Positions 1,811 through 13,869 of a DNA stretch of 15,243 nt are shown here, one piece after another. Made by a program: the position numbers and the translations under genes. Origin of the DNA: Anaerolinea sp. (lineage in GTDB: Bacteria; Chloroflexota; Anaerolineae; Anaerolineales; Anaerolineaceae); assembly GCA_013824385.1 (NCBI GenBank), contig PNNU01000029.1:1-15243 (forward strand), written 5' to 3'. The stretch's first letter is position 1. Each line of letters begins with the position of its first letter. Under the pieces are notes generated by a model. The model ran no database searches. It saw nothing but the letters and a program-made list of their open reading frames with translations, and was not told the origin of the DNA.

Positions 1811-1841
1811 AAAGCACCCAGTGACTCTTCACGGGTGCTTT
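1811..1841 (+). terminator. Hairpin between tRNA-Gln and glnS (terminator or processing signal)
   Basis: AAAGCACCC (1811-1819) pairs with GGGTGCTTT (1833-1841), and the stem continues as GTGA/TCAC around a CTCT loop with a single bulged A. The T tract is short (TTT, then ATCCTT), so termination may be partial. The hairpin begins 10 nt after the tRNA. Read-through would give a tRNA-glnS transcript. Confidence 0.55.
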
Positions 1842-1868
1842 ATCCTTATATTACTAGGAGTTATTTTT

Positions 1869-3548
1869 ATGACCGATGAACCCGTTGTCACCCCCAGCAA
1901 TTTTATAAGTGAAGCCGTAGAAGAAGACTTGAAAACGGGACGGTTTGACCATGTTCAAACCCGGTTTCCTCCAGAACCAAACGGGTATCTCCACATTGGT
2001 CATGCAAAAGCACTTTGCATTGATTTTGGGATTGCAGAGACTTTTGGCGGCGTGTGCAACCTGCGGTTTGATGACACGAATCCAGTCAAGGAAGAAACGG
2101 AATACGTGGATGCCATCAAGGAAGACATCCAGTGGCTGGGGTTTAAATGGGGGCAGGAGCTCTACGCCTCGGATTACTTTGACCAACTGTATGATTTTGC
2201 CATCGAATTGATCAAAAAAGGCAAAGCCTATGTGGATGACCTTACAGCGGATCAAATCCGTGAATACCGCGGCACGTTGACGGCACCCGGCAAAGACAGC
2301 CCCTGGCGCAACCGCACGGTGGAAGAAAACCTGACCCTGTTTGAGAAGATGCGCAATGGTGATTTTGCTGAAGGCGCGTGCGTGCTCCGCGCCAGAATTG
2401 ATATGGGTTCCAGCAATATCAACATGCGCGACCCAACCATGTACCGCATTCTCAAGACACCCCACCACCGCACCGGCAGCAAGTGGTGCATCTACCCAAT
2501 GTATGATTTTGCCCATGGCCAGTCTGATTCAGTCGAAGGCGTGACCCATTCACTTTGCGACCTGGCTTATGAAGACCACCGTCCACTGTATAACTGGTTC
2601 CTGGATGAGTTGGGGTTATTCAAGACCCGCCAGATCGAGTTTGCTCGCCTGAATGTGACTTATACCATCCTGAGCAAACGCTTCCTCAGACAGCTTGTGA
2701 CAGACAAATTTGTGAGCGGCTGGGATGATCCCCGTATGCCGACGTTGTGCGCCATGCGCCGTCGCGGATACCCCGCGAAGGCTGTCCGCAATTTTATCGA
2801 TCAAGTGGGTGTGGCGAAAAACGAGAACCTGATTGATGTTGGTCTGCTTGAATTCAATGTGCGCGATTTATTGAATAAATCCGCCAAACGTGTGCTTGCA
2901 GTGCTGAACCCGGTCAAGGTGGTCATCACCAACTATCCTGAAGATAAGGTGGAGCAGCTTGAAGCCATCAACAACCCCGAAGATCCCTCAGCCGGTACGC
3001 GCTCCTTGCCGTTTTCGCGGGAGTTGTATATAGAGCAGGATGACTTCAGAGAAGTGCCGCCTCCCAAGTATTTCAGGCTCACACCGGGACGTGAGGTGCG
3101 CTTACGTTATGGCTATATTATCAAGTGTGAAAGCGTGGTCAAAGATCCCCGGACCGGTGATGTGACCGAAATCCATTGCACTTACGACCCTGAGACTCGC
3201 GGAGGATACGCTCCTGACGGTCGCAAGGTGCAGGGCACCATCCACTGGGTATCAGCTAGTCACGCAGTCAATGCAGAAGTACGCATGTACGACCGATTAT
3301 TTACGGTTGAAAACGCCAAGAAAGTGGATGAAGATAAAACTTACCTCGATTATGTAAATCCGGAATCGTTGAAAGTTTTAATCGATTGCAAAGTGGAACC
3401 CAGCCTGGCAAATGTAACCAAAGGCGAGCAATTCCAATTTGAGCGTAAAGGTTTCTTCTGTGCCGACCAGGATTCCAAACCTGGAAAGCCCGTCTTTAAC
3501 CTGACTGTGACATTACGAGATTCATGGGCCAAGATCGAAAACAAATAG
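1869..3548 (+). CDS. glnS: Glutaminyl-tRNA synthetase (GlnRS)
   Basis: This enzyme attaches glutamine directly to tRNA-Gln in the cytoplasm using ATP. The 559-aa protein is close to the usual bacterial length of about 550. It is a class I synthetase: [12 protein letters not shown] ends in the HIGH motif at residues 42-45, and ILSKR at 267-271 is the KMSKS-type loop. The block [10 protein letters not shown], characteristic of GlnRS/GluRS, follows. The C-terminal half carries the GlnRS anticodon-binding beta-barrel region, including a QFERKGFFC segment near the end. The start at ATG 1869 is preferred because TAGGAG lies at 1855-1860. A longer frame from GTG 1821 would start inside the hairpin and lacks a ribosome-binding site. 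tRNA-Gln lies 67 bp upstream. Many bacteria lack GlnRS and use GatCAB instead, so this gene implies a direct route here. Confidence 0.97.
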
Positions 3549-3553
3549 AACTC

Positions 3554-3586
3554 AAGACCTCCCCAAAAGCGGGAGGTCTTGTTTTT
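3554..3586 (+). terminator. Intrinsic terminator of glnS
   Basis: AAGACCTCCC (3554-3563) and GGGAGGTCTT (3571-3580) form a perfect 10-bp GC-rich stem with a 7-nt loop, followed by GTTTTT. It begins 5 bp after the glnS stop. Because the opposite-strand operon ends at 3638 and converges on it, the same hairpin may also limit transcription from the right, but the minus-strand side has no good T run. Confidence 0.88.
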
Positions 3587-3637: not shown

Positions 3638-5335
3638 TTATAGTAAAGGACTTTCCTGGTTAATTTTATCCAAAACCTTATGAAGACGTTGAGCTCCTTC
3701 TTGTTTGGTTAATTTTCCTTCCCTGACTTGTTGGGCGATTCGTTGAGTTAGTGTTCGGACATCATCGATTTGGGCGTCATTAGCTGCCGTTTCGAAACTG
3801 CGGTTCCACTTATTGCTGGCATGGCGGGTCACATTATCCCATGCATAATCAGTTTTATCCACCACCACTCCTAAATCCACTTTATTGGCTGCACCAAATA
3901 TTATAGTTGTGGCACCACCTACGACAGCGTCGGCTACCCCCACCACAGGATTTTCAGTCAGTAACCACACTACACCTTTCTTGCCTACTTCTGCGTACGT
4001 ACGCATGACAGCATCAAATCCATGGTAGCCTCGTTCTGCACATATCTTCTGTGCCTTCATCCCAGCTTCCACGAGATCCAATCCTTTTCCTGCGACTCCC
4101 AGGTTTTTCCCAAGCTTACCTATTTTCTCAGCTGCTTTTAATTTGGCAACGTCCGCCACATATTCAGTAGTTGCTTCTACTCCCGGGGTTTGATCCAATT
4201 TTTTTACAGCTTCCTTGATGATGTTTGCTGTTTTTAATGACTCAGGATTCGTAAGAAATTTTTCATAGATGCCGGTAAGTGTGCCTGCCGCACCGACTGG
4301 ATCTTTGACCAGATTTAACGCCAGTTCATACGGGTTTACCGGTGGTGTCTCTGTTTGTACTGGCGGTGGTTCAGTAACCAGCATTGGTGGCTCTGAGACA
4401 AGTTCTGGTGGTGTTTGAGTGATCACCGGAGGAATTGTTTGAGGAGGTGCATATACAGTTGCTGCCATGGGCACCGCAGTATTAGCTGCCTGAGAGGCTC
4501 CTTGAGCGAGCAGCCAGGCCAAACCTGCTCCAATTAGACCGCCTGTGATCGGTATAAGGGGTGAACGAACTGCCTTTGCTTGTGGAGAAGCCCATGTTTC
4601 ATCAAAACTACCGGTCGCAACGGTTGTTTCCTCACTATCGCTTCCGTACGGTACTACGACAATCTCTGGTGAATTATCTGTAGGGGCAGTGTCTCCATTC
4701 GGCACAACCACAATCTCAGGGTTATTCTCAGTGGGTGATTCAGTTTGAATAAAATCACCTTCTGTTAATGGCAGTCGATCTTCCGCAACCGACCAAAGAG
4801 CTTCTGCATATTGCTCAGGGGTCTTTCCAGAAAAGCCAACATAAACACCCAAACGATAATGATCATTACGCGTTGGCATATTCCAGGCTAAGGTATACCC
4901 AATATCTACACCTGTATATGTAAAATATGCCGCAGGGTATCCATGAAAGGTGGTTTGTTTACAAGAACCATCTTGTATCGAAACACCACAAGGTTCGTCA
5001 TCAAAATCTCCTGAATTTGATAGAAATAACTCAGTCCGCTCGAGAAATACATAATTCTCATCTATAAGGTCGTAATTAATATTACACCCTCCCAATCCAT
5101 AATCATTAGTGGCAACTAAAGTACCAGGTACTCCCCCTTTTTGAGCAGCTTCAAATAATAATGCCAGACAAGGACTCGTTTCTTGGTTAATAATTGATTT
5201 TGCTATTGATTTGGAAGACACCTTTTCTTGAAGGGGGAGGGTTCTTTCTCTCTTTGGAACGCTGGCTGAACTTATCATCACCAAGGATAAAATCCCCACG
5301 AAGGTCAATAAAACGTGTAGTTTTGAATTTTGCAT
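3638..5335 (-). CDS. Exported or membrane-anchored protein of unknown function, paralogue of the first gene of the same operon
   Basis: I do not recognise this 565-aa protein as a named family. An N-terminal hydrophobic signal segment (about residues 7-25) is followed by a Cys-containing domain (56-190) with the motif TTFHGYPA at 128-135. Next is an acidic, Pro-rich linker with two repeats, EIVVVPNG and EIVVVPYG (207-231). A glycine-rich hydrophobic segment, LIPITGGLIGAGLAWLLA, lies at 260-277. A Pro/Thr-rich stretch (297-335) leads to a helical C-terminal domain (about 336-565) ending in NQESPLL. From GSFDETW (242) onward it closely matches the 596-aa protein encoded at the operon start, whereas the N-terminal domain is only loosely similar. 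The start is supported by GAGG at 5342-5345, six bases upstream. It is the last gene, 26 bp after the 83-aa gene. The role is unknown; an envelope structure or secreted factor is plausible. Confidence 0.85.
   Translation of the reverse strand: MQNSKLHVLLTFVGILSLVMISSASVPKRERTLPLQEKVSSKSIAKSIINQETSPCLALLFEAAQKGGVPGTLVATNDYGLGGCNINYDLIDENYVFLERTELFLSNSGDFDDEPCGVSIQDGSCKQTTFHGYPAAYFTYTGVDIGYTLAWNMPTRNDHYRLGVYVGFSGKTPEQYAEALWSVAEDRLPLTEGDFIQTESPTENNPEIVVVPNGDTAPTDNSPEIVVVPYGSDSEETTVATGSFDETWASPQAKAVRSPLIPITGGLIGAGLAWLLAQGASQAANTAVPMAATVYAPPQTIPPVITQTPPELVSEPPMLVTEPPPVQTETPPVNPYELALNLVKDPVGAAGTLTGIYEKFLTNPESLKTANIIKEAVKKLDQTPGVEATTEYVADVAKLKAAEKIGKLGKNLGVAGKGLDLVEAGMKAQKICAERGYHGFDAVMRTYAEVGKKGVVWLLTENPVVGVADAVVGGATTIIFGAANKVDLGVVVDKTDYAWDNVTRHASNKWNRSFETAANDAQIDDVRTLTQRIAQQVREGKLTKQEGAQRLHKVLDKINQESPLL
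3641..4615 (-). repeat. Duplicated C-terminal coding segment, copy 1
   Basis: This segment of the 565-aa gene (GSFDETW to the end) is homologous at DNA level to 6578-7566. Three islands are identical in both copies: 3783-3835 with 6717-6769 (53 bp), 3957-3994 with 6891-6928 (38 bp) and 4410-4479 with 7365-7434 (70 bp). Between them the copies differ mainly by single substitutions. Confidence 0.85.
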
Positions 5336-5361
5336 TTACCGCCTCATCTAATTTTGGTAGA

Positions 5362-5613
5362 TCAACTATTATGGCTTTTTTTGTGGATTAAGCGGGTAAT
5401 AAAAAAAGACAAAGCTATGCTTCCGCCAAATATCAGCACTTTGATCGGAAAAGTCAGACACTCCAATCCACTGCCCTGGCCGATCATGGAATACATAAAC
5501 GAGCTGATCTGCCCAAAAATGATGCCAACCACCATGGAAATGGCAAAACCTGCCAGCATGGAAGGGAAGCTGGGGCGTTTTGGTTTAGGTGCGTAAGGGT
5601 AAGGGTAACTCAT
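5362..5613 (-). CDS. Small two-helix membrane protein of unknown function
   Basis: This 83-aa protein has a Pro/Tyr/Lys-rich N-terminus (residues 2-17) and two predicted transmembrane helices at about 18-43 and 55-76. A short loop holding the only cysteine joins them, and a basic tail (HKK) ends the protein. I know no named family for it. A strong ribosome-binding site, AAGGAG at 5622-5627, lies eight bases upstream of the ATG and marks it as a genuine gene despite its size. It lies 29 bp after the 310-aa gene and 26 bp before the 565-aa paralogue, so it is co-transcribed with them. A scaffold, anchor or small pore subunit for the neighbouring envelope proteins would fit, but that is inference. 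Confidence 0.82.
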   Translation of the reverse strand: MSYPYPYAPKPKRPSFPSMLAGFAISMVVGIIFGQISSFMYSMIGQGSGLECLTFPIKVLIFGGSIALSFFITRLIHKKSHNS

Positions 5614-5642
5614 GTGATGTGCTCCTTTGAACGGTGGACTAA

Positions 5643-6575
5643 TTAATAGGCAGAAACCAGTGTGCGGATCCAGTCCAGGGCTTCTGATCGTGACTGCATT
5701 TGAGATATCTCAATCACCTCTCCCAGAAAATCAAGGCGGAAGAGGTGATTTTTACCAATCAGAAACACGCTGGTGGTCATTTGTTCCGGTTGAAAACTGG
5801 TGAAGCCAATGGTAATGGATACTTGTTCAGGGTCCGAGAGTGAATCTGCCAGGGATGCACCGGTAGCTCCGATCTGCAGCCGAGACAGATTGGCACTTTC
5901 AAGGTATCCGATGGATAACAAGCTTTCCAATTGAGCCTGAATTGAGATCTTATCCAGCGATTCTGTACCGGTAACACCGAGCGCATTAAATACATCAATC
6001 CAGCCGTTATCTCTTACAAAAGAGGTCTCCAATTCGGTTTGTAAAAAGGTCTCGCTGCCATCCCCATTCAGGATGTAAGCAGTGTCACGCTGCAAGCAAG
6101 CTTGCTTGAAGAGGAGAAAAGCACTTTGTGACATACCTATTTTGGTGTTTTGCCCTGGTTCGATACTAAGCCAATCAGGCAGAAGGCCTGGTAACGTCTC
6201 TTCCCACTGCAAAGGGGAATGCAGGATAAATTGTTCATTTATCACACCATACTGTACCACCCCTGACCCCGCCAGCAGAAAATGGGTGCTAAATGCTTCA
6301 ATATTCGTACGTAGGGTGGTATAGATGCTCTTTTGTCCCACTGCTGCCAGCATTAAACTCTCTGTGAGTTCAGCCGATAAGCTCTTTTGGGATTGGTAAT
6401 ATCCCTTGCTGGTCAACGTCTCAACCGCCTGCGGTATCCAGTTTTCGATCTCTTCAGCGGAAGGGGGGTCTTGACTCCCCAGCCATTCGCCAAGTGCGGA
6501 CCCCTGTTGTATGGGCAGGTGTAACAGGGTGGATAACACCCAGGTTTCATGCCAGTTCAATTGATAGATACTCAT
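5643..6575 (-). CDS. Soluble protein of unknown function with two similar halves, translationally coupled to the upstream paralogue
   Basis: This 310-aa protein has no signal peptide or membrane helix and is probably cytoplasmic. It is not a family I can name. Two related segments, ETLTSKGYYQSQ (52-63) and ESLLSIGYLESA (217-228), lie about 165 residues apart. Each is preceded by helix-like sequence and followed by a strand-rich region (about 97-121 and 251-291), suggesting two repeated helix-plus-sheet halves. Its ATG overlaps the TGA of the preceding gene (ATGA, 6572-6575). The ribosome-binding site AGGAG (6587-6591) lies within that gene's last codons, so translation is coupled and stoichiometry may be controlled. 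A chaperone or adaptor for the exported partner is one possibility. A two-fold architecture also occurs in EspG chaperones of type VII secretion, but I see no motif that proves that link. Confidence 0.82.
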   Translation of the reverse strand: MSIYQLNWHETWVLSTLLHLPIQQGSALGEWLGSQDPPSAEEIENWIPQAVETLTSKGYYQSQKSLSAELTESLMLAAVGQKSIYTTLRTNIEAFSTHFLLAGSGVVQYGVINEQFILHSPLQWEETLPGLLPDWLSIEPGQNTKIGMSQSAFLLFKQACLQRDTAYILNGDGSETFLQTELETSFVRDNGWIDVFNALGVTGTESLDKISIQAQLESLLSIGYLESANLSRLQIGATGASLADSLSDPEQVSITIGFTSFQPEQMTTSVFLIGKNHLFRLDFLGEVIEISQMQSRSEALDWIRTLVSAY

Positions 6576-8362
6576 AATAGCGGACTCTCCTGATTGAATT
6601 TATCCAGCACTCTCTGCAGTCTACGACTGCCTTCCTGTTTGCTGACTTTTCCATCCTCCACCTGTGTGCGGATCCGTTCAGTGAGATGTTTCAAGTTCTC
6701 TGTCTTTTCGTTTTCTGCTGCCGTTTCGAAACTGCGGTTCCACTTATTGCTGGCATGGCGGGTCACATTGTCCCAGGCGTAATCGGCTTTTTCCACCACC
6801 ACGCTAATATCCACTTTGTTGTCTGTTCCAAATACCATGGATGTGGCTCCACCCACGGCGGCGTCTGCCAAACCTACCACCGGGTTTTCTGTCAGTAACC
6901 ACACTACACCTTTCTTGCCTACTTCTGCATAGGTGCGTAGGACTGCATCCATGCCGCGGTAGCCTCGCTTCGCACATATCTTCTCGGCATTCATCAATGC
7001 TTCAGCCGTATCGAGCAACTTCCCTGCGATTCCCAGCTTTTTGCCGATCTTTGCTACTTTCTCAGCCGCTTTTACCTTGGCCACATCCGCTACATATTCA
7101 GCGGTTGCCTCTACTCCAGGGGTTTGATCCAATTTCTTTACTACATCCTTGATGATGTTTGCCGTCTTTAATGAATTTGGATTGGTTAGAAATTGTTCAT
7201 AGATGCCTGTGAGTGTTCCTGTCGTACCGACTGCATCTTTCACCAGGGTAAAGCCTAATTTATATGGGTCAGGTGGAGGTTCAACCGGTTTTATTTGCGG
7301 AACTTCAGTCTGTATTGCGGGTGGTTCATTAACCAGTTTTGGCGGTTCGGTTGCCAGTACCGGGGGTGTTTGAGTGATCACCGGAGGAATTGTTTGAGGA
7401 GGTGCATATACAGTTGCTGCCATGGGCACCGCAGCATTGGCTGCCTGAGAGGACCCTTGAGCGAGCAGCCAGGCTAACCCTGCTCCAATCAGACCACCTG
7501 CTATTGGTATAAGGGGTGAACGCACGGCCTTTGCTTGTGGAGATTGCCAGGTTTCATCAAAGCTGCCTGTCTCAGCAAAAGTATCTTCCGGCGAGGTCTC
7601 TCCATACGGTACGACGACTACTTCTTGTTCTGCTTCGGTGGGCGCTTCAGTTTCGCCGCCGTAGGGCACAACCACCACTTCAGGTTGCGTGTTTTCTTCA
7701 ACAATAACAACCTGCTCGGTTTCAATGGGCAGAGACTCTCCTTGATCAGGAGGTGGAAGTTTTAATTCAGGATATCGGTTATAAGTGACAGCATAAAATG
7801 TCTCAGCAACCTGCATCCAGTCCGGTGTGAGATAGATGTGTTCGTTACCGACAGTTTCATATGAATATAGGTTAAGATAGAAAACAAGCTCATGATCTGG
7901 GATGTACCAATGAAATGCCTTTGCGTTTTCTTCGATAGGTTCAGTTGTTTCTAAAAGCGCGGGGTAACCATGAAAAGTCGTTTTTGTGCGAATAATCCAG
8001 TCTCCACCAGACATAACTTCTGGATCTTCTGCCGAACTCATAATAATTAACCTTGCCGAATACCAGGAGAAGTAATGATCAGTAGTTCGCTTGTCAATTT
8101 CTTCTTCCAGTTGAAGATCGCAATGAATATAATTCTGATTAATATCCGTATAATCGGTGGCCGATGATTCTTGCCCCTTCAAGCCTGCGCTGGCGGCTAC
8201 TTCGCGAAGAAGTGCAAGACAATCAAAGCTGTAATCCAACTGGTTAATTGACCCCGCTTTTGCAGAACCTTCACCATAAACAGGGCTTTGAATGGATGAA
8301 AGCAACAATGCGACCAGAAATCCAGTTAGACAGAGAAAATAAAGTCGGCGTTTTGTTTGCAT
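6572..8362 (-). CDS. Exported or membrane-anchored protein of unknown function, first gene of the four-gene operon
   Basis: This 596-aa protein is a paralogue of the operon's last gene. A signal-like N-terminus (RR at 5-6, hydrophobic about 7-24, cleavage plausible near 30) leads to an extracytoplasmic domain (about 45-200) with TTFHGYPA at 128-135. An acidic linker follows with two exact EVVVVPYG repeats near 228-254. Then come GSFDETW (266-272), the hydrophobic segment LIPIAGGLIGAGLAWLLA (284-301), a Pro-rich spacer (320-366) and a helical C-terminal domain (about 367-596) ending in NQESPLL. The start at 8362 is chosen because AAGGAG gives a seven-base spacing to ATG. An upstream GTG at 8368 lies against the ribosome-binding site. 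The family is unknown to me. An Arg-Arg pair alone does not prove Tat export. Its stop overlaps the next start. Confidence 0.85.
   Translation of the reverse strand: MQTKRRLYFLCLTGFLVALLLSSIQSPVYGEGSAKAGSINQLDYSFDCLALLREVAASAGLKGQESSATDYTDINQNYIHCDLQLEEEIDKRTTDHYFSWYSARLIIMSSAEDPEVMSGGDWIIRTKTTFHGYPALLETTEPIEENAKAFHWYIPDHELVFYLNLYSYETVGNEHIYLTPDWMQVAETFYAVTYNRYPELKLPPPDQGESLPIETEQVVIVEENTQPEVVVVPYGGETEAPTEAEQEVVVVPYGETSPEDTFAETGSFDETWQSPQAKAVRSPLIPIAGGLIGAGLAWLLAQGSSQAANAAVPMAATVYAPPQTIPPVITQTPPVLATEPPKLVNEPPAIQTEVPQIKPVEPPPDPYKLGFTLVKDAVGTTGTLTGIYEQFLTNPNSLKTANIIKDVVKKLDQTPGVEATAEYVADVAKVKAAEKVAKIGKKLGIAGKLLDTAEALMNAEKICAKRGYRGMDAVLRTYAEVGKKGVVWLLTENPVVGLADAAVGGATSMVFGTDNKVDISVVVEKADYAWDNVTRHASNKWNRSFETAAENEKTENLKHLTERIRTQVEDGKVSKQEGSRRLQRVLDKFNQESPLL
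6578..7566 (-). repeat. Duplicated C-terminal coding segment, copy 2
   Basis: This is the counterpart in the 596-aa gene, in the same orientation and about 2.9 kb from copy 1. It includes a Pro-rich spacer slightly longer than that of copy 1. The N-terminal coding parts of the two genes show no comparable DNA identity. Confidence 0.85.
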
Positions 8363-8694
8363 TCTCACTCTCCTTGAGCAATTGCATTGTTAGACACTAT
8401 AAATAATTCATAATCCGTTTCTTCTATTTATAAAAAGAATGAAAAATGAAAAACACAACTTTTCCTTCAAAAAATACTTCAAGCTGCCAACTTGGATAGG
8501 GTATTTTTGTAGTTGTGTATGAGGTGCGTTGTGGATAAAAAACCTCAAAGGTTTTGCTCCGATGAACTGTATTTACTTCAGTGACATTCAAATAATAAAA
8601 TCCTTCAAATCCATTAAATATTGTCTCGACTAAAAAGTAAAGGGAAATCTTTACATTATTTCTTGAGTTTTAAATTAACCAGATTCGCTGTCCA

Positions 8695-8728
8695 ATTCAT
8701 TCGAACCCTCTAAACATCTTGAATGAAT
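8695..8728. repeat. 8-bp inverted repeat, possible operator
   Basis: ATTCATTC (8695-8702) and GAATGAAT (8721-8728) are perfect inverted copies separated by 18 bp. The centre-to-centre distance is 26 bp. A dimeric regulator site is possible; chance is also possible in AT-rich DNA. Confidence 0.3.
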
Positions 8729-8803
8729 AAAATAACACATAAATGAATTTATAACCTGATTAAGCATCAAGTTAAATCAAACAAGTTTCATGTTTTTATT
8801 TCC

Positions 8804-8834
8804 TTTACAAGGAGGGTACAATATTAACTATAAT
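8804..8834 (+). promoter_or_regulatory. Candidate promoter of the HD-GYP gene
   Basis: TTTACA (8804-8809) and a consensus TATAAT (8829-8834) are 19 bp apart, longer than the ideal 17. A start near 8841 would give a leader of about 120 nt that carries the hairpin at 8882-8918. Confidence 0.42.
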
Positions 8835-8881
8835 CGAATAAATGTAACTACCCTCTCAACATAAAAGAATTCGTCGCCAAT

Positions 8882-8918
8882 AAACATCACAGAGAAGGTG
8901 GTTTTCTCAGTGATGTTT
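8882..8918 (+). promoter_or_regulatory. Stable hairpin in the putative leader of the HD-GYP gene
   Basis: A 15-nt arm, AAACATCACAGAGAA (8882-8896), pairs with 8904-8918 with a single A-A mismatch and a 7-nt loop (GGTGGTT). It is followed by only a short T run (TTTTA including the stem end). It ends 44 nt before the start codon. It could be an attenuator, an mRNA stability element or a palindromic operator. Confidence 0.5.
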
Positions 8919-8962
8919 TAGTAATCAGGGATTTATTTGAAAAAAAGCGGGATAGCACTTAA

Positions 8963-11900
8963 ATGAGATCCAAACCTGCTGTATTTGAGAATCAGGCTGT
9001 CCAACCTTTGTTGGATTCTTTTGGTTCCAGCATTGCGATAGTAGATGAAAAAGGCACAATTGTCCTAGTCAACCAGGCATGGCGAGACTTTGGTAATGAA
9101 AACGGCTATCTGGATAAAGATTTTGGACTCGGGAAAAATTATTTGAGTCTATGCGATTCAATAATGGGCATGGGAAAGGAAGAAGCTCGTCAGGTAGCAG
9201 ATGGAATCAGAAAAATATTGAATGGTGAAAAAAAAGAAGAATTTGTAGATTATTCGTGCAACTGTCCCACAGAAAACCGCTGGTTTAGATTAAAAATCTC
9301 CAAATTTGACTACAATCAAAAATTTATTATTTTGATCCATAGCAATATTTCTCAAAATAAGGTTATTGAAGAGAGTTTATTCGAAAGCGAATTTCTTTTT
9401 AAAAGGGTTATCGAACAATCATCTGAGGGAATTGTCATCATCAATGAGGTTGGAAAGATCATTGAATGGAATCATGCTGAGGAAACTATCACCGGCCGCT
9501 CACGTGAAGAAACCATTGGCCGATATATGTGGGATGTGCAGGAAGAATCACGTGCAGGAAAAACCTCGGCCAAGCTTGTTGATCTGATGAAAAAGGGGAT
9601 TATGGAATTGCTCGAAACCGGCACATCTTCCTGGGCTGGAAAACCAACTGAAGTCAACATCGTCAAACCGGATGGCACATTGGTTACGATTGAGAATGTA
9701 ATATTCCCTATTAAGCATAATCATGGTTTTTTGGCTTGCGGCATCACTCATGATATAACCGAATTAAGAAACTCAAAGAAGGCACAGCAGATTTCAGAAA
9801 GCCGATTTCGTACTTATGTAAATTATTCTCCTGCCATTGCCATGGTGATCAATCAAAAGGGAGATTTTCTGGATGTGAATCCTCAAGCTATTCTGAAATT
9901 GGGTTTTTCTGAAGAAGAATTTCTTAAAATGAATATTGTTCAATTGATTCCAGCCGAAGAGCAGCCAAAAACGAACGAACTTCTTTTGAATTTAAAAGCG
10001 AATGGACAGGCATCTGCTGAATTACAAACCTTGAAGAAAAATGGCGAACAGATTTTGCTTTTTTCAAAAGCTGTGGAGTTGCCCGATCAATCCATCATGA
10101 TTCTTTGCAACGACATTTCGGAATTAAGAGAATCCCAAACAAAATTGGAAGAGAGTGAAGCATTTTTAAATAACATATTGGATAATATTCCATCCATGAT
10201 CACGGTAAAAGAAGCAGCAACATTGAAATATTCGAAGGTTAATCGGGCAGTTGAAGAATTTCTCAAAACATCGAGTAATGAAATCCTTGGAAAAACCGTG
10301 CACGATCTATTCACCAATGGTGAAGCCAGGTTTTACACAGAACAAGATGAATTAACCATAAAAGGGAAACAAATTGTTGATATTCCAATTGAAAATGTGT
10401 TCACTAAAGACCATCAACAAAAATTCTTTCATGAGAAAAAGATCCCCATGTATGACGCTGATGGTAATCCCAGCTTTATATTAAGCATTTCTGAAGATAT
10501 TACTGAGCAAATACAATTGGAAAACGATGCAAAAACCCATTTGGATAAACTTGAGGCTATCAGTAAATTAACCACCAGGATGCAAGCTCCCGGTTCTTTG
10601 GATGATATGCTGCCTGTGTTGCTTGATGTATTTCTGGAAACAGTGAATGCCCCCATGGGAAGCATCTGGTTGTATAAACCAGAACAAGATGAACTCGTCC
10701 CTGTCTATTATTCGGGCGGCGGCCACGATAATCGACTGCTTGTAGAGGAACCGCTCAAACCTGGTAAGGGTATTCCAGGGATGGTTTTCTTGACCCGGGA
10801 GTCTTATATAACCCAGAATTACAATGAAGACCCCTGGTTTTCTGTTCAAAAAAAAGGAAGATTGCATAATCCACTCTGTGGAGTTACCCTTCCGCTGCGC
10901 ACAACCAACAGTGTGATTGGTGTGATCAATATAAGTACTGAATCTGAAAGATCATTTATTGATGAAGATATTAAACTGTTGACCACATTGAGCGAAATTG
11001 CGGGCAATGCCATTCAAACCATTTCGTTGAAGGAACAAACAGAACAAAGGCTCATGCGATTAACAGCCCTGAGTTCGATTGACAGGGCAATTTCTTCGAG
11101 TTTTGATATGATGGTAAGTTTTGAGATTTTAGTCAGCAATGTGATTTCACAACTTAAGATGGATGCTGCCGATGTGCTTCTTTATAACCCGCATTCACAG
11201 TTATTGGAGTATTCAACCGGCCAGGGATTTTGGTCTAACGTCATTGAATCCGCTGTTTTGCGTCTGGGTGAAAGCCTGGCTGGTAAAGCCGCCGTAACTC
11301 GTGAAATGGTAGTCGTGAAGAACCTTATCGATTCTAATATTCTGTTTGCCAATCAACAATTGGCAAAGGAACAATTTGTGAGTTATTACGGTGTACCTCT
11401 GGTGGCAAAAGGGGAACTCAGAGGTGTTTTGGAAGTATTCAGTCGAACTCAGCACACCCCGGATGATGATTGGGTCAATTTTTTGAAATCCCTGGCGGAG
11501 CAGGCAGCCATTGCCATAGATAATACCGAAATGTTCGAAAATCTTCGGCGATCCAATATGGAATTGGTCATGGCTTATAATGCCACGATTGAAGGCTGGT
11601 CACATGCCCTGGATTTGCGTGATAAAGAGACGGAAGGTCATACACAGCGTGTAACCGAGATTACAGAAAGACTGGTCAGAGCGTTTAATTTTCCGGATAA
11701 TCAAATAAAATATGTCCGTTGGGGGGCACTTTTGCACGATATTGGCAAAATGGGTGTGCCTGACGGTATTTTACTGAAACCGGGCCCACTTTCAGAAGAA
11801 GAATGGGTGATCATGCGCAGACACCCTCAGTATGCTTTCGAGATGCTTGCTCCTATCAGCTATTTAGCCCAGGCTATTGATATTCCGTATTGCCATCACG

Positions 11901-12139
11901 AAAAATGGGATGGTACGGGCTATCCGCGTGGATTGAAAGGTGAACAGATTCCGCTTTCGGCCAGGTTTTTTGCAGTGGTGGATATTTGGGATGCTCTATG
12001 CAGCGACCGCCCCTATCGCAAGGCATGGCCCCATGAAAAGGTTATCGAACATATTCGTTCACTTTCAGGCACTCACCTGGATCCGGAAGTGGTGGATTTT
12101 TGCCTTGGATCAGGTATATTGTCCAGCAAAACCAGATAG
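8963..12139 (+). CDS. PAS/GAF-sensing HD-GYP domain protein, predicted cyclic-di-GMP phosphodiesterase
   Basis: This 1058-aa cytoplasmic protein has no visible membrane helix. It carries four PAS modules (about 12-135, 140-270, 277-390 and 396-515), two GAF domains (about 525-690 and 697-858) and a C-terminal HD-GYP domain (about 870-1050). The HD-GYP site looks complete: GHT at 892-894, HDIGK at 925-929, HHEKWDGTGYP at 978-988 (GYP 986-988) and VVDIWDAL at 1005-1012. HD-GYP proteins hydrolyse c-di-GMP at a metal centre, so this is probably a multi-signal phosphodiesterase. The first PAS contains RWFRLKISKF, like a common bacterial PAS variant. The upstream ribosome-binding site is weak (GCGGGA). 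A REC-histidine kinase gene follows 209 bp downstream and may work with it. The sequence is more AT-rich than glnS or the oxidoreductase genes. Signals are unknown. Confidence 0.93.
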   Translation: MRSKPAVFENQAVQPLLDSFGSSIAIVDEKGTIVLVNQAWRDFGNENGYLDKDFGLGKNYLSLCDSIMGMGKEEARQVADGIRKILNGEKKEEFVDYSCNCPTENRWFRLKISKFDYNQKFIILIHSNISQNKVIEESLFESEFLFKRVIEQSSEGIVIINEVGKIIEWNHAEETITGRSREETIGRYMWDVQEESRAGKTSAKLVDLMKKGIMELLETGTSSWAGKPTEVNIVKPDGTLVTIENVIFPIKHNHGFLACGITHDITELRNSKKAQQISESRFRTYVNYSPAIAMVINQKGDFLDVNPQAILKLGFSEEEFLKMNIVQLIPAEEQPKTNELLLNLKANGQASAELQTLKKNGEQILLFSKAVELPDQSIMILCNDISELRESQTKLEESEAFLNNILDNIPSMITVKEAATLKYSKVNRAVEEFLKTSSNEILGKTVHDLFTNGEARFYTEQDELTIKGKQIVDIPIENVFTKDHQQKFFHEKKIPMYDADGNPSFILSISEDITEQIQLENDAKTHLDKLEAISKLTTRMQAPGSLDDMLPVLLDVFLETVNAPMGSIWLYKPEQDELVPVYYSGGGHDNRLLVEEPLKPGKGIPGMVFLTRESYITQNYNEDPWFSVQKKGRLHNPLCGVTLPLRTTNSVIGVINISTESERSFIDEDIKLLTTLSEIAGNAIQTISLKEQTEQRLMRLTALSSIDRAISSSFDMMVSFEILVSNVISQLKMDAADVLLYNPHSQLLEYSTGQGFWSNVIESAVLRLGESLAGKAAVTREMVVVKNLIDSNILFANQQLAKEQFVSYYGVPLVAKGELRGVLEVFSRTQHTPDDDWVNFLKSLAEQAAIAIDNTEMFENLRRSNMELVMAYNATIEGWSHALDLRDKETEGHTQRVTEITERLVRAFNFPDNQIKYVRWGALLHDIGKMGVPDGILLKPGPLSEEEWVIMRRHPQYAFEMLAPISYLAQAIDIPYCHHEKWDGTGYPRGLKGEQIPLSARFFAVVDIWDALCSDRPYRKAWPHEKVIEHIRSLSGTHLDPEVVDFCLGSGILSSKTR

Positions 12140-12348: not shown

Positions 12349-13869
12349 ATGAAACAGCGATTACATGTATTGATTATTGATGATTCTGATGAAGATGTTT
12401 TTATATTAGAAAAAACCTTACAAGATGGAGGGTACGAATTAACGAGTTCAGTTGTAGATTCAGCACTGGCTATGCGTTCGGCTCTCGTTAACCAGAATTG
12501 GGACATAATCACATCAGATCATTCCATGCCTCAATTTGATGCAAAACACGCTTTGGATTTGGCAAAAGAATTATGTCCGGAAACGCCATTTATCATTATC
12601 TCAGGTGAAATTGATTTAGATTTAGCAGTTTCATTGATGAAAGCTGGCGCGAAAGATTATATTCAAAAACGGGAATTGATACGTATCCTTCCAGTGATAG
12701 AACGCGAATTGTATGAGTCTGAGTTGCGTCGTAATAGACAAAAAGTAGAACGTGACTTACTAAAATCAGAAATCCGATACCGTAGACTTTTTGAATCCGC
12801 ACAAGATGGGATTTTAATTTTAGATGCAAACACGGGATTGGTCATAGATGTTAACCCATTTCTCATGACCATGTTAGACTATTCAATCGACGAGTTTTTA
12901 GGGAAAGAATTATGGGAGCTTGGGGTCTTTATAGATAAAGACATATCAAAAAAAGCGTTTCTCGAGTTGCAAACAAAAAATTATATTCGATATGACAATA
13001 TTCCACTTGAAACAAAACAAGGCAAACATATTTCTGTTGAGTTTGTGAGCAATGTCTATTTAGTAGATAATCAAAGAATTGCCCAATGTAACATACGTGA
13101 TACAACAATACGTGAGTTAACACTTCTTGAGATTAGTAATTTAAATAATGATCTGGAACAACGAGTGAACGAACGAACTGCTCAGCTTGAATTTGCAAAT
13201 AAAGAACTCGAATCCTTTAATTTTTCGGTTTCACATGATTTACGCGCTCCACTCAGACACATGATGAATTATGCAGATGCTTTGAAGGATGACAACTCCA
13301 AGAATCCGAGCGCAGAGAGTTTACGACTTATTCAAAAAATCCGCGAATCTGGCGATCGAATGGATGCGCTGATCGAAGCACTATTAGCATTATCCCAATT
13401 CTCCCGTTTTGAGTTAAAACAACAGGAGGTAAATTTAAGCAGAATTGTTCAGCAAATATCTATTGAACTTCAACAAAACGAACCATCCCGTGATGTCAAG
13501 TGTATTATTGCCGATGGAATTATAGTCAATGGAGATGAACAATTATTACGAATAGTGTTGGGAAATCTATTGAGCAATGCTTGGAAATTCACCTCCAGAC
13601 GAAAAAACGCAGTTATTGAGTTCGGAATAACTGAACAAGATAGCGAAAAGATATATTTTATTAAAGACAACGGGGCTGGCTTTAACATGGATTATGTTGA
13701 TAAGTTGTTTTCTGCCTTCCAAAGGCTTCATAGTGAAAAGGAATTTCCTGGGATTGGAATTGGATTGGCTACTGTGGCACGTATTATCCATCGACATGGT
13801 GGACGCATTTGGGCAGAAGGTAAAGAAAATCTGGGATCAACATTTTGTTTCTCTATTGGTAACTCATGA
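12349..13869 (+). CDS. REC-PAS-histidine kinase (response regulator/sensor kinase hybrid)
   Basis: The 506-aa protein begins with a receiver domain (about 5-120) that has the acidic pair DD (11-12), phospho-acceptor D57 and a conserved lysine in DYIQK. A PAS domain (about 138-258) and a coiled-coil linker (about 258-290) follow. A HisKA domain has FSVSHDLRAPLRH with the phospho-acceptor at H296. The HATPase domain has the N box (LGNLLSNAWKFT), DNGAGF and GIGIGLATVARIIHRHGG. There is no membrane segment, so it is cytoplasmic. The start at 12349 follows GAGGGG (12338-12343) by five bases. Having REC at the N-terminus means the kinase is probably itself switched by phosphorylation from another kinase. 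No separate regulator gene is adjacent. The HisKA/HATPase part resembles phytochrome-type kinases. It lies downstream of the HD-GYP gene. The gene is strongly AT-rich. Confidence 0.94.
   Translation: MKQRLHVLIIDDSDEDVFILEKTLQDGGYELTSSVVDSALAMRSALVNQNWDIITSDHSMPQFDAKHALDLAKELCPETPFIIISGEIDLDLAVSLMKAGAKDYIQKRELIRILPVIERELYESELRRNRQKVERDLLKSEIRYRRLFESAQDGILILDANTGLVIDVNPFLMTMLDYSIDEFLGKELWELGVFIDKDISKKAFLELQTKNYIRYDNIPLETKQGKHISVEFVSNVYLVDNQRIAQCNIRDTTIRELTLLEISNLNNDLEQRVNERTAQLEFANKELESFNFSVSHDLRAPLRHMMNYADALKDDNSKNPSAESLRLIQKIRESGDRMDALIEALLALSQFSRFELKQQEVNLSRIVQQISIELQQNEPSRDVKCIIADGIIVNGDEQLLRIVLGNLLSNAWKFTSRRKNAVIEFGITEQDSEKIYFIKDNGAGFNMDYVDKLFSAFQRLHSEKEFPGIGIGLATVARIIHRHGGRIWAEGKENLGSTFCFSIGNS

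Follow-up and report, generated by a model that had tools for sequence, protein, structure and literature searches.

Here we analyse an operon of four genes, named A, B, C and D in their order on the minus strand, which lies within a 15,243-nucleotide stretch of DNA (the window) from Anaerolinea sp., a member of the Chloroflexota. Protein B is predicted to have the tertiary fold of EspG, a targeting chaperone of mycobacterial type VII secretion systems (T7SS), and its gene stands between those of two putatively exported proteins, A and D, that belong to a family of mosaic proteins. On the predicted model, the fold of B is what is new here, and we found no published description of its pairing with two exported mosaic proteins. 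The reading that we tentatively favour, while granting that it may well be wrong, is that B acts as a cytosolic adaptor of EspG fold for the anchored and modular proteins A and D, binding the tail that both have in common.

Protein B has the predicted fold of a type VII secretion chaperone

The predicted model of B shows the EspG tertiary fold, with alignments that span B from residue 1 or 2 to residue 310. Like EspG1, EspG3 and EspG5, which are the targeting chaperones of the mycobacterial ESX systems (class T7SSa), B has no convincing hydrophobic helix that could cross a membrane, and it is likewise encoded beside its candidate clients. It differs from them in sequence family, PF14011 (EspG) being matched by none of 30 B-family members at E ≤ 0.9, where 24 other families were matched. 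It differs also in that no PE, PPE, WXG100 or EccC domain was found in the window proteins scanned, and in that some relatives of B are fused to an FHA domain, as P0033 is, or to a zinc ribbon. A search of solved structures by sequence gave no match to B. The original prediction, made from the sequence letters alone, had recognised no named family in any of the four proteins; by sequence this holds, nothing above curated cut-offs or clearly significant having been found in Pfam, NCBIfam, PADLOC and PHROGs, but by fold it fails for B.

EspG is described as attaching to an end of a helical client protein, which it brings to its type VII machine (PMC10765036), and the accounts of EspG-fold chaperones that we consulted concern Actinomycetota and Bacillota, where they help to choose the proteins that a type VII machine exports. 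Such chaperones are known in T7SSa, in T7SSb (EsaE), as YfjC and in T7SSh (PMC10765036, PMC11217815). As their papers describe them, EsaE of Staphylococcus aureus (T7SSb) and YfjC of Bacillus subtilis are like B in having an EspG-like predicted fold without an EspG sequence, and their genes lie in or beside the cluster of the client, as B adjoins A; the gene for YfjC adjoins that of the predicted pore-forming protein YfjB (PMC10765036). Compared here by description, one of their clients is a toxin of LXG type and the other a predicted, T7-associated one, whereas A and D do not match LXG and carry signal-like helices. TshG of T7SSh is likewise presented as an EspG-type chaperone in a non-mycobacterial system, but T7SSh is described as a five-component locus adjoining Tad pilus genes, and the term "Chloroflex" is absent from the main text of the T7SSh paper. 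A literature search by title and abstract, which did not reach most subscription journals, found no report of an EspG protein in Chloroflexota among the papers listed.

A and D are mosaics of a common architecture

In both A and D a signal-like helix at the N-terminus is followed, in this order, by a head, a linker rich in acidic residues (acidic/Pro in A), a Gly-rich hydrophobic helix (residues 285-303 of the 598-residue open reading frame (ORF) in A), a Pro-rich linker and a tail with hydrophobic stretches, which include a hydrophobic hairpin. The tail covers about residues 366-598 of A and 333-565 of D. The N-termini combine a basic N-region with a stretch whose mean hydropathy is 1.98 in A and 2.27 in D, and by this composition they look like signals.

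Aligned over their full length, A and D are 54% identical. Identity is 32% in the head (D 51-190), 90% in D 244-286, 74-79% in D 333-522 and 58% in D 523-565, so that the C-terminal domain claimed by the original prediction to be common to the first and last genes is confirmed, with the likeness concentrated C-terminally and weak in the head. Nucleotide identity in bins of 30 codons rises from 0.53 (D codons 211-240) to 0.84 (codons 241-270), and an exact match of 70 nucleotides between A and D lies beyond this jump at D codon 241.

Relatives of the two proteins show the same exchange of parts. The head of P0002, a natural mosaic, is 93% D-like and 32% A-like, while its tail is 91-93% A-like and 60-76% D-like. 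P0006 carries an A/D-type tail behind an unrelated-looking head, and in P0010, P0011 and P0048 the head is retained together with a similar hydrophobic helix, but the C-terminal ends that follow are unlike the D tail. One mark of polymorphic toxins, a delivery part that stays constant while the C-terminal domains are exchanged, is found in this family (in P0010, P0011 and P0048, and in the mosaic P0002). Regarding these other ends, that of P0010 is Gly-rich and has no Pfam match, and those of P0011 and P0048 form a common domain, distinct from the D tail, in which aligned Cys, His and Asp residues are conserved; we take these residues to be reminiscent of cysteine peptidases, as a lead only, since Pfam finds no such domain and gives no convincing match to these ends. 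P0046, named from an Anaerolineaceae metagenome-assembled genome, is 93% identical to the A tail over 239 aligned residues. The A-like fragment P0009 (70-78% identical, by the alignment used) is labelled Ignavibacteria, a label that may be due to mis-binning because the fragment lies on a contig of only 1472 bases.

The structure of D was modelled from 11 sequences (A, D and nine of 13 relatives, the four relatives with other ends being left out), and the model is acceptable only in the head (about residues 52-190; block means of the predicted local distance difference test (pLDDT) of 62-83) and, moderately, in residues 531-560 (64-76). Foldseek gave no match to this model at E ≤ 1e-3. The modelled head resembles domains of the Mog1/PsbP/LpqN type, with VIA values of 8.9 for the Rv0999 orthologue, 8.8 for both the PknH extracellular domain and TiME, 8.2 for Tsi3, 7.9 for PsbP, 7.6 for LpqN and 7.3-7.4 for Eag chaperones. 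These values are middling and indicate a fold class only, and proteins outside that type also reach them (TM1622, 8.5; BT_1490, 8.2; MucB, 7.5). Identity to the PknH extracellular domain, LpqN, PsbP and the Eag chaperones is 4-13% in the rows named. Solved structures searched by sequence gave no match to A or D, and sub-threshold matches to DUF1366, sCache_2 and a SHOCT-like domain were dropped.

Relatives and their genomic linkage

Both searches for the D family scored only the roughly 8000 candidates with most words in common. One of them gave 12 matches, two of which were A and D of the window, and the two together gave 13 proteins outside the window; the B family comprised 33 matches. With these matches to the searches for D and B, the proteins A, B and D belong to real families. 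The genomic contexts of the relatives were deduced solely from contig names and the sizes of the longest contigs, counting only the longest contig per cluster. On this basis, three of the 13 outside D-family proteins lie on a contig with a B-family protein. In the case of P0047 and P0014 the names ACD_34C00161G0001 and G0003 place both on one contig and skip a single gene number, just as one gene separates D from B in the window, and equal size and source point to a common contig for P0003 and P0016 (4176, jgi) and for P0007 and P0017 (13469, ena). Among the ten remaining contigs of the D family, nine measure less than 5 kb.

Two scans of genome contigs, one with a single sequence and one with an alignment of which one degenerate pattern was usable, confirmed no relative, which does not imply absence. 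No relative was confirmed in viral contigs, plasmids gave no match to B or A, and phage records gave none to B; on these negatives an origin from a mobile element was rejected.

Predicted membrane topology of A, D and C

Four Cys residues, making two aligned pairs, are present in the head of D (positions 56, 84, 116 and 125), and the family alignment shows them, respectively, in 11 of 13, 11 of 12, 10 of 13 and 9 of 14 rows that have no gap at the position. Of the 14 rows with a head, 13 have an even number of Cys in it (0, 2, 4 or 8), P0006 having none; the exception is P0011 with three, which seems to lack its start. A single Cys lies in the tail (D 432). Of the 11 non-gap rows 9 have it, and these nine comprise every row that bears this tail. 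Even counts in the head and one Cys in the tail fit an oxidising outside for the former and a reducing inside for the latter, and we infer from the sequences that the head of A and D would lie outside and the tail inside.

Protein C has two hydrophobic helices, a basic, Pro/Tyr-containing N-tail and a basic C-tail, and would by this composition form a hairpin with both ends inside. A match of C to an ECF transporter (20.1 bits, cut-off 30.7) was sub-threshold and was dropped.

Layout and surroundings of the operon

Table 1. Positions in the window of the operon genes, parts of D and neighbouring features
Feature	Positions	Strand	Description
Gene A	ORF 6572-8368 (598 aa), start probably ATG 8362	minus	First gene; stop overlaps the start of B
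Gene B	5643-6575 (310 aa)	minus	Soluble; predicted EspG fold, the T7SS chaperone fold
Gene C	5362-5613 (83 aa)	minus	Two-helix membrane protein; family matches all sub-threshold
Gene D	3638-5335 (565 aa)	minus	Paralogue of A; diverged head, closely similar hydrophobic helix and tail
D head	4766-5182	minus	aa 52-190; alpha/beta domain in the model, similar to domains of the Mog1/PsbP/LpqN type
Hydrophobic-helix module of D	4478-4606	minus	aa 244-286; A-D identity begins sharply here
Hairpin, 11 bp	3553-3581		Between glnS (convergent) and D; T-rich on plus-strand side; plausible shared terminator
tRNA-Gln (CTG)	1731-1803	plus	17 bases upstream of the glutaminyl-tRNA synthetase ORF
Glutaminyl-tRNA synthetase ORF	1821-3548	plus	Longest reading
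Intergenic region	8369-8962		594 bp, between the operon and a divergent sensor gene
PAS/GAF/HD protein	8963-12139	plus	1058 aa; divergent from the operon
Response-regulator/PAS/histidine-kinase hybrid	12349-13869	plus	Divergent from the operon

Four minus-strand genes with gaps of -4, 29 and 26 bp, a soluble protein and a two-helix membrane protein standing between the outer two, had been proposed for this region, and all of this agrees with our data: the ORF coordinates and direct reading give a 4-bp overlap of A and B (ATGA) and spacers of 29 bp (B/C) and 26 bp (C/D), and the count of hydrophobic helices separates B from C as expected. The end given to A in that proposal, 8362, is also reasonable, as the in-frame ATG at this position is preceded by AAGGAG, which makes it a better start than the alternative GTG at 8368. 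Terminator-like sites in the region number 6 (5.3 expected from shuffled sequence), so that the hairpin is weak by itself, and promoter-like sites number 10 (10.3 expected). Since neither exceeds expectation, it is by their spacing that the four genes appear to form one transcript.

The neighbours of the operon (two oxidoreductase subunits, one TPP-binding and one with a POR domain, tRNA-Gln, glutaminyl-tRNA synthetase, two large sensor proteins and quinolinate phosphoribosyltransferase) look chromosomal. The tRNA-Gln, being close to its own synthetase on the same strand, may be co-transcribed with it. A regulatory link between the divergent sensor genes and the operon is possible, judging from their arrangement. 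The intergenic region between them lies mostly within two 1-kb bins of G+C 0.34-0.35, and an Rfam search of it gave no match at gathering scores.

Possible functions of the operon

Placing these results into a model, A and D would be exported by Sec through their N-terminal signal and anchored by the Gly-rich membrane helix, with the exchangeable, disulfide-bonded head outside and the helical tail remaining inside or in the membrane. B, translationally coupled to A, would bind the tail common to A and D, keep it soluble and hand it to a membrane partner; the strongest local candidate for a part of this partner is C. The contact between B and the tail is proposed because EspG binds helical clients and EspG-fold genes adjoin those of their clients. 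That some relatives of B carry FHA or zinc-ribbon domains suggests a further role in other strains, where the adaptor may also dock to proteins marked by phosphothreonine. The earlier suggestion of a cytoplasmic partner of exported subunits gains from the EspG fold of B, the A-B overlap and the three other contigs with D-like and B genes; the secretion and toxin elements of that suggestion stay unproven, no T7SS core or toxin domain being found in the proteins of the window.

Several observations weigh against an adaptor of this kind. Over whole chains B compares with EspG at TMq values of only 0.38-0.49 and root-mean-square deviations of 6.7-9.4, so that parts of B are arranged differently, and an internal duplication of B was rejected, the profiles of its two halves aligning with a probability of 1-2%, which is not significant. 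The tail of A and D, originally predicted to be a helical domain, is helical in the secondary structure of the D model, but its fold could not be modelled, block means of pLDDT being 23-33 over most of the C-terminal region. The Gly-rich helix is flanked in A and D by two Lys/Arg residues before it and none after it, which gives no support to an internal tail, and in P0007 (one of the 13 rows reaching this helix) its hydropathy is below the threshold of 1.5; with the basic flank on the N-terminal side and this weak helix, the orientation of A and D is a predicted one. Finally, a D-like neighbour was found for at least 3 of the 33 B relatives, and several others come from contigs measuring between 58 kb and 1.5 Mb without a D-like match among the matches listed. 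B therefore seems to be a wider family that may have partners other than A and D, these being perhaps one kind of partner; this weakens the idea of a dedicated system.

Alternatively, B could be a true targeting chaperone of EspG type in a type VII branch of the Chloroflexota, where it would work with an EccC-like ATPase and WXG100 proteins from other loci and have A and D, or other proteins, as clients; we consider this unlikely though worth weighing. The fold of B and the chaperones cited above speak for such a branch, as do FHA domains, described as recurrent in T7SS components. A few WXG100 proteins are reported for Chloroflexi (PMC3935865), and a review mentions a comparatively small number of such sequences in Chloroflexota (PMC10765036), making a type VII machine in the same genome possible. 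Nevertheless, none of the 10 window proteins scanned has a WXG100, LXG, PPE or FtsK/SpoIIIE domain, no WXG100, LXG or PE/PPE Pfam match was found at E ≤ 1 in 12 members of the A/D family including A and D, and the Sec-type, signal-like start of both proteins argues against ordinary type VII substrates.

The exchange of heads and tails, and the other end domains of P0010, P0011 and P0048, would also suit a polymorphic toxin or contact-inhibition locus in which A and D, as toxins, would each combine a constant delivery module with exchangeable parts, B would be their chaperone and C a membrane immunity protein; the hydrophobic hairpin of the tail could be a membrane-acting domain, and yfjB-yfjC of B. 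subtilis is a precedent for a locus of this kind (PMC10765036). Mosaic proteins with exchanged terminal domains are described for such systems (PMC3482391), but here there is no recognised toxin domain (by Pfam or PADLOC, nor any significant PHROGs match) or immunity gene. Moreover, a common tail would make the two toxins near-duplicates, a single C would have to serve two genes, and with one membrane helix the tail would not get out of the producing cell, so that we regard this locus type as rather improbable. Less probable still, in our judgement, is envelope sensing without secretion, with A and D as receptors whose heads bind ligands and B, as the FHA domains of its relatives would allow, signalling to partners in Ser/Thr phosphorylation.

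Returning to the adaptor, it is conceivable, though we would not expect it, that the EspG fold is put to use outside the classical type VII systems, as a Chloroflexota cytosolic adaptor of a mosaic, Sec-inserted display or sensing system that is wired through FHA domains to phosphothreonine in some strains, or equally that it marks a type VII branch beyond T7SSa-j. Standing beside Sec-exported mosaic proteins in Anaerolineae, and joined to FHA domains in relatives, an EspG fold would imply one of two things: targeting of the type VII kind extends to another phylum, or the fold has a wider use than in type VII systems.
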